This document shows positions 3,011 through 32,678 of a DNA stretch of 34,371 nt, piece by piece; the first letter of the stretch is position 1; each line of letters starts with the position of its first letter. The notes beneath the pieces were generated by a model. It was not told the origin of the DNA and did not search any database. It worked only from the letters and a program-made list of their open reading frames with translations. The stretch is from Candidatus Eremiobacteraceae bacterium (lineage in GTDB: Bacteria; Vulcanimicrobiota; Vulcanimicrobiia; Eremiobacterales; Eremiobacteraceae), in contig DATCBN010000042.1 in assembly GCA_036511855.1 (NCBI GenBank), positions 1 through 34,371 on the forward strand, written 5' to 3'. The position numbers and the translations under genes were made by a program.

Positions 3011-3036
3011 GGGCAAGCGATGCTTGCCCTACTACA
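3011..3036 (+). repeat. Palindromic repeat, family A (degenerate tail)
   Basis: A perfect 8-base inverted repeat with 3-base loop, GGGCAAGC-GAT-GCTTGCCC (3011-3029), followed by TACTACAG, a degraded form of the usual TAGTACG tail. It lies in the divergent region between the methyltransferase and epimerase genes, upstream of both starts. Confidence 0.85.
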
Positions 3037-5190: not shown

Positions 5191-5216
5191 CGTACTAGGG
5201 TGAGCATCGCTCACCC
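5191..5216 (-). repeat. Palindromic repeat, family A, inverted copy with compensated arms
   Basis: CGTACTA is followed by GGGTGAGC-ATC-GCTCACCC (5198-5216). This is the family A element in reverse orientation, with two changes in each arm relative to GGGCAAGC/GCTTGCCC that preserve the pairing. It begins five bases after the permease stop codon. No T tract follows, so it is not a standard terminator. Confidence 0.85.
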
Positions 5217-5220
5217 ATTT

Positions 5221-5432
5221 GGGCAAGCGATGCTTGCCCTAGTACGGCTAAAATGGACGGGGCAAGCGATGCTTGCCCTAGTACGAGCGTAGAGTAAAGA
5301 CGGGGCAAGCGATGCTTGCCCTAGTACGGCTAAAATGGACGGGGCAAGCGATGCTTGCCCTAGTACGAGCGAAAATAAAACGGGGCAAGCGATGCTTGCC
5401 CTAGTACGAGCGAAAATAAAACGGGGCAAGCG
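5221..5432 (+). repeat. Tandem array of family A palindromes (five full copies plus one truncated)
   Basis: Full copies of GGGCAAGC-GAT-GCTTGCCC plus TAGTACG start at 5221, 5260, 5303, 5342 and 5383, so the period is 39-43 bases. A sixth copy is cut after GGGCAAGCG at 5432. The linkers fall into related types: GCTAAAATGGACG (after copies 1 and 3), AGCGTAGAGTAAAGACG (after copy 2) and AGCGAAAATAAAACG (after copies 4 and 5), which suggests growth by duplication of one- or two-copy units. It is not CRISPR: the repeat is a palindrome with a very short linker and the linkers are repeated. Confidence 0.9.
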
Positions 5433-5434
5433 GA

Positions 5435-5453
5435 GCCGACCATAAAGGTCGGC
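5435..5453. repeat. Palindromic repeat, family B
   Basis: GCCGACC (5435-5441), loop ATAAA and GGTCGGC (5447-5453), followed by CCCTACA. It is fused directly to the truncated last copy of the family A array. The same stem occurs at 32559 and 32646. It lies 3' of the hypothetical gene at 5474-6382 and could stop transcription arriving from that gene, though no T tract is present. Confidence 0.8.
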
Positions 5454-5473
5454 CCCTACAAAAGTTCTCTAGG

Positions 5474-11287: not shown

Positions 11288-11599
11288 ATGACCCCAAACG
11301 CCGACATCCTGCTCTTCACGTACGCGCTGGTTGTGGTCGGGCTGACCACCGGCGCGCAGATGATCTACGCGGGCAACCGGGACCGGGCGATGTATTTTTC
11401 GGGGCGCGATAAGCCACCGGTGACGCCGCCCTCGCTGCGGCAAGCGGGCATCATCTTCAGCGTCGTCGGGGTCGCGATGTTTGCCGCGATGGTCGTCGAG
11501 ATACTCTCAGGCGCGGCCGGCACGAATATCGTGGCGTTCATCGCCGCGACAATCATCATTCCACCCGTCGTCGTTTGGTACAACTCGAAGACTATGTAG
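11288..11599 (+). CDS. Small integral membrane protein of unknown function
   Basis: 103 residues with three hydrophobic segments (about 7-27, 52-72 and 78-96) joined by a short charged loop, AGNRDRAMYFSGRDKPPVTPPSLRQ. No recognised motif is present. GAGG at 11282-11285 lies just upstream of the ATG. The gene is 12 bases after the lipoprotein gene and is the last of the plus-strand operon: a palindrome with a T tract begins three bases after its stop. Its function may be linked to the ABC system only by position. Confidence 0.72.
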   Translation: MTPNADILLFTYALVVVGLTTGAQMIYAGNRDRAMYFSGRDKPPVTPPSLRQAGIIFSVVGVAMFAAMVVEILSGAAGTNIVAFIAATIIIPPVVVWYNSKTM

Positions 11600-11601
11600 G
11601 A

Positions 11602-11632
11602 GGGCAAGCATCGCTTGCCCTAATTTTTTTTT
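11602..11632 (+). terminator. Rho-independent-type terminator built from a family A palindrome
   Basis: The stem GGGCAAGC-ATC-GCTTGCCC (11602-11620) is followed by TAA and nine consecutive T (11624-11632). In the plus direction this is a hairpin plus T tract directly after the stop of the last gene of the ABC operon. In the minus direction, 3' of nuoN, no T tract follows the hairpin. Confidence 0.75.
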
Positions 11633-11658
11633 GGGCGAGCGATGCTCGCCCTAGTACG
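11633..11658 (+). repeat. Palindromic repeat, family A, compensated variant
   Basis: GGGCGAGC-GAT-GCTCGCCC followed by TAGTACG. Relative to the common copy, position 5 of the left arm is G instead of A and the paired base of the right arm is C instead of T, so the pairing is kept. It lies between the terminator and the nuoN stop, in the convergent gap. Confidence 0.88.
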
Positions 11659-32543: not shown

Positions 32544-32558
32544 CCCCGTCGTTCTGTA

Positions 32559-32592
32559 GGGCCGACCTTTATGGTCGGCCCTAGATTTTTTT
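32559..32592 (+). terminator. Family B palindrome with T tract, terminator-like
   Basis: GGGCCGACC (32559-32567), loop TTTAT and GGTCGGCCC (32573-32581) form a perfect 9-base stem, followed by TAGA and a run of seven T. It lies 16 bases after the second TPR gene stop. It has the form of an intrinsic terminator in the plus direction. Confidence 0.7.
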
Positions 32593-32594
32593 AA

Positions 32595-32620
32595 GGGCAA
32601 GCGATGCTTGCCCTAGTACG
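32595..32620 (+). repeat. Palindromic repeat, family A
   Basis: GGGCAAGC-GAT-GCTTGCCC followed by TAGTACG, a full canonical copy located between the family B terminator and the second family B copy. Confidence 0.88.
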
Positions 32621-32645: not shown

Positions 32646-32666
32646 GGCCGACCATCAAGGTCGGCC
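32646..32666. repeat. Palindromic repeat, family B, second copy
   Basis: GGCCGACC (32646-32653), loop ATCAA and GGTCGGCC (32659-32666), then CCACA. The loop differs from the other copies, while the stem is unchanged. It is 12 bases from the 3' end of the TonB-like gene on the minus strand. Confidence 0.8.
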
Positions 32667-32678
32667 CCACAGTTTGTG

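Follow-up and report, generated by a model that had tools for sequence, protein, structure and literature searches.

Paired arm changes in head-to-head REP dimers of a Candidatus Eremiobacteraceae genome

The window analysed here, a stretch of 34,371 nucleotides that constitutes contig C42 of a 3.07 Mb genome in 112 contigs, contains repeated copies of a short palindrome, and in two of its ten full copies both arms have changed together with the pairing kept. What these palindromes are, and why their arms change in pairs, is the question raised by this locus. An earlier note read the covariation as a sign that the hairpin is selected, or repaired as a unit.

Palindrome copies in the window

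The full palindromes are located at 3011-3029, 5198-5216, 5221-5239, 5260-5278, 5303-5321, 5342-5360, 5383-5401, 11602-11620, 11633-11651, and 32595-32613. With up to three mismatches allowed, the window contains 17 strand matches, compared with 0.04 expected by chance, and a search of the window against Rfam at the gathering score gave 0 matches. The common arms are GGGCAAGC/GCTTGCCC, the copy at 5198 has GGGTGAGC/GCTCACCC, and the copy at 11633 has GGGCGAGC/GCTCGCCC. These positions and variant arms were given correctly in the earlier note to within a few bases, its position 5191 being the start of the tail of a palindrome that begins at 5198. The tail that it assigned to the copies, TAGTACG, is present in most of them as GTACTA, read 5' to 3' towards the hairpin; the tails at 3011 (GTAGTA) and 11602 (GTAGGA) differ. 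The array that it placed at 5221-5432 is composed of real copies, except that the end at 5432 is a single arm (5423-5431) fused to a second palindrome family (5434-5459) and not a full copy. An aspect not considered in that note is the placement of the two variants, both of which are inverted partners of common-type copies: 5198 is paired with 5221, and 11633 with 11602. The features are as follows.

3011..3035, minus strand: REP copy, common arms GGGCAAGC/GCTTGCCC, tail GTAGTA (3030-3035), between divergent genes
5192..5216, plus strand: REP copy, variant arms GGGTGAGC/GCTCACCC, tail GTACTA (5192-5197), head-to-head heterodimer with 5221-5245
5221..5245, minus strand: REP copy, common arms, tail GTACTA, pairs with 5192-5216 and opens a run of five head-to-tail copies
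5260..5284, minus strand: REP copy, common arms, tail GTACTA
5303..5327, minus strand: REP copy, common arms, tail GTACTA
5342..5366, minus strand: REP copy, common arms, tail GTACTA
5383..5407, minus strand: REP copy, common arms, tail GTACTA
5423..5459, minus strand: hybrid of one REP arm (5423-5431) and the second palindrome family, GTAG-GGGCCGACC-TTTAT-GGTCGGC
11596..11620, plus strand: REP copy, common arms, tail GTAGGA, then a T-run; half of a head-to-head heterodimer between convergent genes
11633..11657, minus strand: REP copy, variant arms GGGCGAGC/GCTCGCCC, tail GTACTA, partner of 11596-11620
32595..32619, minus strand: REP copy, common arms, tail GTACTA, between convergent genes

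The second GTAG palindrome family (GGGCCGACC-TTTAT) is of low copy number and is observed in the window at 5434-5459, 32557-32583, and 32646-32672. It is similar to the congeners' REPs and is possibly a remnant; no gene for a matching REP-associated tyrosine transposase (RAYT) was found in this genome.

A high-copy REP family and its RAYT genes

Copies were counted by pattern in the whole genome, and positional statistics were taken from a 1.035 Mb sample, one third of the genome. At three or fewer mismatches, the genome contains 443 forward and 464 reverse matches to the palindrome, and a reversed control gives 2 and 3. The sample holds 244 copies, most of them intergenic. In size (20-40 nt class), high copy number, and mostly intergenic location, the palindrome agrees with a REP element. 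In two congeners, designated G001 and G002, 38-55 matches per strand are found at two or fewer mismatches, far fewer than here, and the other 38 relatives have essentially none. A syntenic interval could be identified in a congener for 25 clusters, and in 23 cases it contains no copy; the three clusters tested from the window (5192-5407, 11596-11657, and 32595) are among these. The congeners have only ~74% DNA identity to this genome and were used for presence or absence only; because of this divergence, insertion boundaries are unreadable from the empty sites. The remaining two clusters are apparently common to the congener, and the two-copy one may be independent, because the arm types are arranged differently there.

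By approximate gene calls, 10 of 104 clusters lie inside predicted genes (for example, L042:11437, L046:7582, and L068:2775), and some of these may be gene interruptions. The same rough prediction places the clusters a median of 21 nt from a stop codon and shows a preference for convergent gene pairs (43 of 88 classed clusters, as opposed to 90 of 470 intergenic gaps). This placement is what would be seen if the palindromes were intrinsic transcription terminators under selection, with paired changes preserving the terminator stems. A run of five or more T residues follows 55 of the 244 hairpins, compared with 13 of 1728 random intergenic 12-mers, and terminator-like matches are found within the window. 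However, more than three quarters of the hairpins have no such run, and the arms are nearly identical in sequence and not just in stem. Nor would selected terminators account for the absence of 23 of 25 comparable clusters from the congener, for palindromes that flank RAYT genes, or for mixed inverted dimers. An origin as terminators is therefore improbable.

Two genes for Y1 transposases (Y1_Tnp) are present in the genome, one open (contig C109) and one frameshifted (contig C4). The open frame of 181 codons on C109 encodes a protein that scores 96.1 bits against the RAYT model NF047646 (cut-off, 80) and 29.3 bits against the IS200 model NF033573 (cut-off, 55), so that identity as an IS200/IS605 insertion sequence was rejected. 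In ten relatives, His68, His70, and Tyr127 are invariant. A sequence profile built from ten family RAYTs hits TnpA-REP (PDB 4ER8) with an E value of 9.5e-13, and 4ER8 is also the best fold match of the predicted structure (pLDDT 89); a search of the PDB with the single RAYT sequence returned nothing. With the curated cut-off passed and the HUH motif and catalytic tyrosine present, the C109 protein is, as judged from its sequence, a RAYT (TnpA-REP). The gene on C4 (L032:1426-1892) has a frameshift, possibly an assembly error, upstream of the region that in a relative holds the catalytic tyrosine.

The earlier note had suggested looking for a RAYT gene with matching termini, and both genes are located between inverted copies of the window palindrome, the right-hand copies at C109 being degraded. 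Copies flanking the C4 gene are mainly GTAC-tailed, and on one side of the C109 gene the copies are GTAG-tailed. At most other RAYT loci of this family, the gene has inverted hairpins of its own, with quite different arms. A RAYT of another genus (G009, L101 ~1151-1913) lies between GGGCGATT/AATCGCCC copies and, on its other flank, GGGCGACT/AGTCGCCC copies, and these inverted copies again differ by a paired change.

There is also variability in the tail. Among the 244 sampled copies, the tetranucleotide is GTAC in 141, GTAG in 76, and GTGG in 1; in the congeners, GTAG is found in 41 of the 45 copies that have GTAG or GTAC. Most amplified REP copies of G002 (94 of 108 matches) have GAAG as their head, another departure from GTAG, and the RAYT there (L099:1-840) is flanked by GAAG hairpins. 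A GTAC tail abolished cleavage by one RAYT and redirected cleavage in another (PMC8266576). The expectation from the guide model, GTAC copies beside GT or GA, was not seen here: the 5' dinucleotide is mostly CC, CT, or TC, and no cleavage-site claim is therefore made. A truncated copy in the same orientation, comprising the tail and part of the left arm, is observed 13-19 nt upstream of ~38 of the 141 GTAC-tailed copies and of 0 of the 76 GTAG-tailed copies (p 1e-8; for example, L036:15491, L059:19871, and L043:13371 in this genome). Such truncated copies may derive from deletion between tandem copies or from insertion into older copies.

Arm pairing and head-to-head dimers

A pattern allowing a pyrimidine or a purine at the two variable pairs recovers 565 hairpins genome-wide, at least 549 of which are paired at both positions. 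These fall into three discrete, perfectly paired arm types: 392 copies of GGGCAAGC, 126 of GGGTGAGC, and 31 of GGGCGAGC. The fraction of paired cells is 0.959, compared with 0.872 in shuffled data (maximum, 0.883). The claim that the arm changes keep pairing thus stands genome-wide at these two pairs, where changes do not break pairing as often as they preserve it. Outside them, most distinct arm changes break it: in the sampled third, three compensated haplotypes are found versus 33 with a broken pair. By a rough estimate, independent point mutation would yield ~0.03 compensated copies. What had been taken for selection or repair of the hairpin is consequently the kept pairing of two or three amplified arm types and not a record of many independent compensations; pairing matters via which arm types became numerous.

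Comparison with the congeners, whose RAYTs have hairpins other than the window palindrome, bears on whether each copy is selected or repaired in place. There, 33 of 61 copies in G001 and G002 are fully paired, compared with 199 of 244 here (p 2e-5). The 28 broken copies argue against in-place maintenance of every copy, and this part of the earlier reading is not supported as it stood. Quasi-palindrome correction by template switching is a known mutational process. Operating during replication on imperfect palindromes, and with no selection, it would change both arms together; it would not leave 28 of 61 congener copies broken and uncorrected, nor would it concentrate the changed arms in head-to-head partners, where they cluster non-randomly. 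As a source of the paired changes, it is very improbable.

The orientation of neighbouring copies shows where the changed arms are placed. Within 150 nt, the sample contains 79 head-to-tail, 55 head-to-head, and 6 tail-to-tail neighbours. The arms are mixed in 49 of the 55 head-to-head dimers, compared with 30.1 expected from random pairing of the members (p 5e-5), a comparison in which the dimers are not independent by descent and may have been amplified as whole units. The dimers comprise 42 of GGGCAAGC with GGGTGAGC, 7 of GGGCAAGC with GGGCGAGC, and 6 with the same arm. In contrast, just 19 of 71 head-to-tail neighbours are mixed. The same bias is observed in both congeners with their own REPs. 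In G001 (GTAG-GGCGGACC), mixed arms are found in 9 of 9 head-to-head dimers (p 0.011), mostly through variants that preserve pairing, and same-arm head-to-tail neighbours exceed expectation (p 0.0002). In G002 (GAAG-GGGCCGAC), 21 of 32 are mixed (p 0.009) and 11 of 32 have the same arm; about half of the mixed dimers are pair-preserving (GGGCCGAC with GGGCCGAT), and the rest have a one-sided change.

A founder effect would explain the mixing in another way: one dimer with two arm types was amplified as a unit, so that one or two events account for both the mixing and the covariation, and the RAYT's need for paired hairpins is the only selection behind them. The small number of discrete arm types fits such an origin, as does the location of 42 of the 50 sampled GGGTGAGC copies in mixed head-to-head dimers. 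It is nevertheless unlikely, given that two kinds of mixed pair exist here (the 42 and the 7 above), that two congeners, whose REPs are unrelated, acquired different mixed pairs, and that the spacer sequences are diverse. These head-to-head spacers are short, mostly 1-17 nt, and A/T-rich, and are longer in same-arm dimers (median of 12 versus 7 nt, with only six same-arm dimers).

Folding with DNA parameters, tails included, shows what the mixed arms do to the dimer. In real GGGCAAGC/GGGTGAGC dimers, the calculated joint hairpin is favoured over two separate hairpins by a mean of 1.7 kcal/mol, and this advantage rises to 16.2 kcal/mol once the partner is replaced by the same arm. Mixed arms are calculated to cost neither half its own hairpin and to make the long joint hairpin ~14 kcal/mol less stable. 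Of the 47 mixed dimers evaluated, 28 have their energy minimum as two separate hairpins, and all five same-arm dimers evaluated have it as the joint hairpin. In GGGCAAGC/GGGTGAGC dimers with unlike tails, the two-hairpin form is the calculated minimum in 18 of 19; for the window dimer at 5192-5245, which has like tails, the minimum is still the joint hairpin. Uninterrupted pairing between the halves extends over no more than 10 bp in any of the 49 mixed dimers and reaches 10-25 bp in same-arm dimers. For cleavage by SbcCD, a minimum stem of 8-16 bp is cited (PMC3733652). In this genome, the SbcC and SbcD models have sub-threshold matches only.

The paired changes are best read as a de-coupling of the dimer halves, since a pair change keeps the hairpin of its own half and breaks cross-pairing with the partner. 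As a whole, the preferred explanation, to which a probability of about 0.62 is assigned, is that these REPs are spread by the RAYT of their own genome and that paired arm changes de-couple the halves of inverted dimers. The REPs would be non-autonomous, single-strand substrates of the RAYT, which, following the model for REPs, would bind the tail and one intact hairpin on single-stranded DNA and cut beside the hairpin, thereby copying or moving REPs into intergenic gaps, mostly just past stop codons. Substrates would be limited to copies with pairing arms, and the numerous arm types would be perfectly paired for this reason. A same-arm dimer would fold into one hairpin of ~25 bp that hides both RAYT sites and is the kind of inverted repeat removed by SbcCD-type nucleases and replication slippage. 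With a stem pair changed on both sides in one half, that half would retain its hairpin and lose its pairing with the partner; alternatively, mixed arms may be favoured because each hairpin then stays accessible to the RAYT. The anatomy of the REPs and RAYT genes, the copy numbers, the absences in congeners, the arm types, the dimer bias in three species, and the folding energies are computed results; cleavage and mobilisation by the RAYT, and loss or inefficient use of same-arm dimers as the source of the bias, are what we infer. Several observations weigh against this explanation: the GTAC tail of most copies, given its effect on one RAYT in PMC8266576, the possible amplification of dimers as whole units, the 11 same-arm dimers of G002, the joint-hairpin minimum of the window dimer at 5192-5245, and the sub-threshold SbcC and SbcD matches. 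More tentatively, and at somewhat less than even odds, inverted REP dimers may be under a general two-sided constraint, to keep an own hairpin for the RAYT and to avoid pairing between halves, of which arm covariation and tail divergence (GTAC opposite GTAG) would both be outcomes.

Comparison with known REP systems

The REPs and RAYTs of Stenotrophomonas and Pseudomonas (PMC2817692; Nunvar 2013, PMC3686654) resemble those described here in several respects: a short palindrome preceded by a tetranucleotide, many copies that lie mainly between genes, RAYT genes flanked by inverted copies, and modified copies that stay palindromic. Selection for complementary arm mutations has already been suggested for REPs (Nunvar 2010, PMC2817692). 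The main differences are the GTAC head in 141 of 244 sampled copies, the short, A/T-rich head-to-head spacers, and the host lineage. IS200/IS605 elements (IS608 and ISDra2) likewise have a Y1 HUH fold and hairpin ends; unlike them, the protein here scores below the IS200 cut-off and above that for RAYTs, and has just two gene copies.

Inverted partners that are unlike in stem or loop have been described in the Y and Z REPs of the E. coli BIMEs and in the GTAG-24 dimers of P. aeruginosa (Di Nocera 2013, PMC3733652), where it is suggested that heterodimers may escape SbcCD-type clearance and where the preference of many REP families for dimers of unlike halves is left with no obvious explanation. 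In the present case, the arms that differ belong to one family and vary in a way that preserves pairing; the bias was measured relative to random pairing and to head-to-tail neighbours, and it recurs in three species. In REPINs (Bertels and Rainey 2011, PMC3116915), two inverted REPs also form a unit, as in the 55 inverted doublets of the sample. REPINs are described as one hairpin over both halves, whereas here the gap between joint and separate forms is small and the separate fold is often the minimum.

REPs, RAYTs, complementary arm changes (PMC2817692), heterodimers (PMC3733652), and inverted doublets (PMC3116915) are thus already known. Three features appear to be new within the literature searched: paired changes are concentrated in head-to-head partners, this pattern recurs within one genus in species with unrelated REPs, and most copies have a GTAC tail. 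The supposed conservation of GTAG is naturally broken by GTAC in one species and by GAAG in a second, and the guide-sequence model of RAYT cleavage could be examined with such material. For the preference for unlike halves left unexplained in PMC3733652, this genome and its two congeners provide an answer that is quantitative and can be tested: with paired arm changes, each half keeps the full stability of its own hairpin, and most of the extra stability of the joint hairpin is lost.
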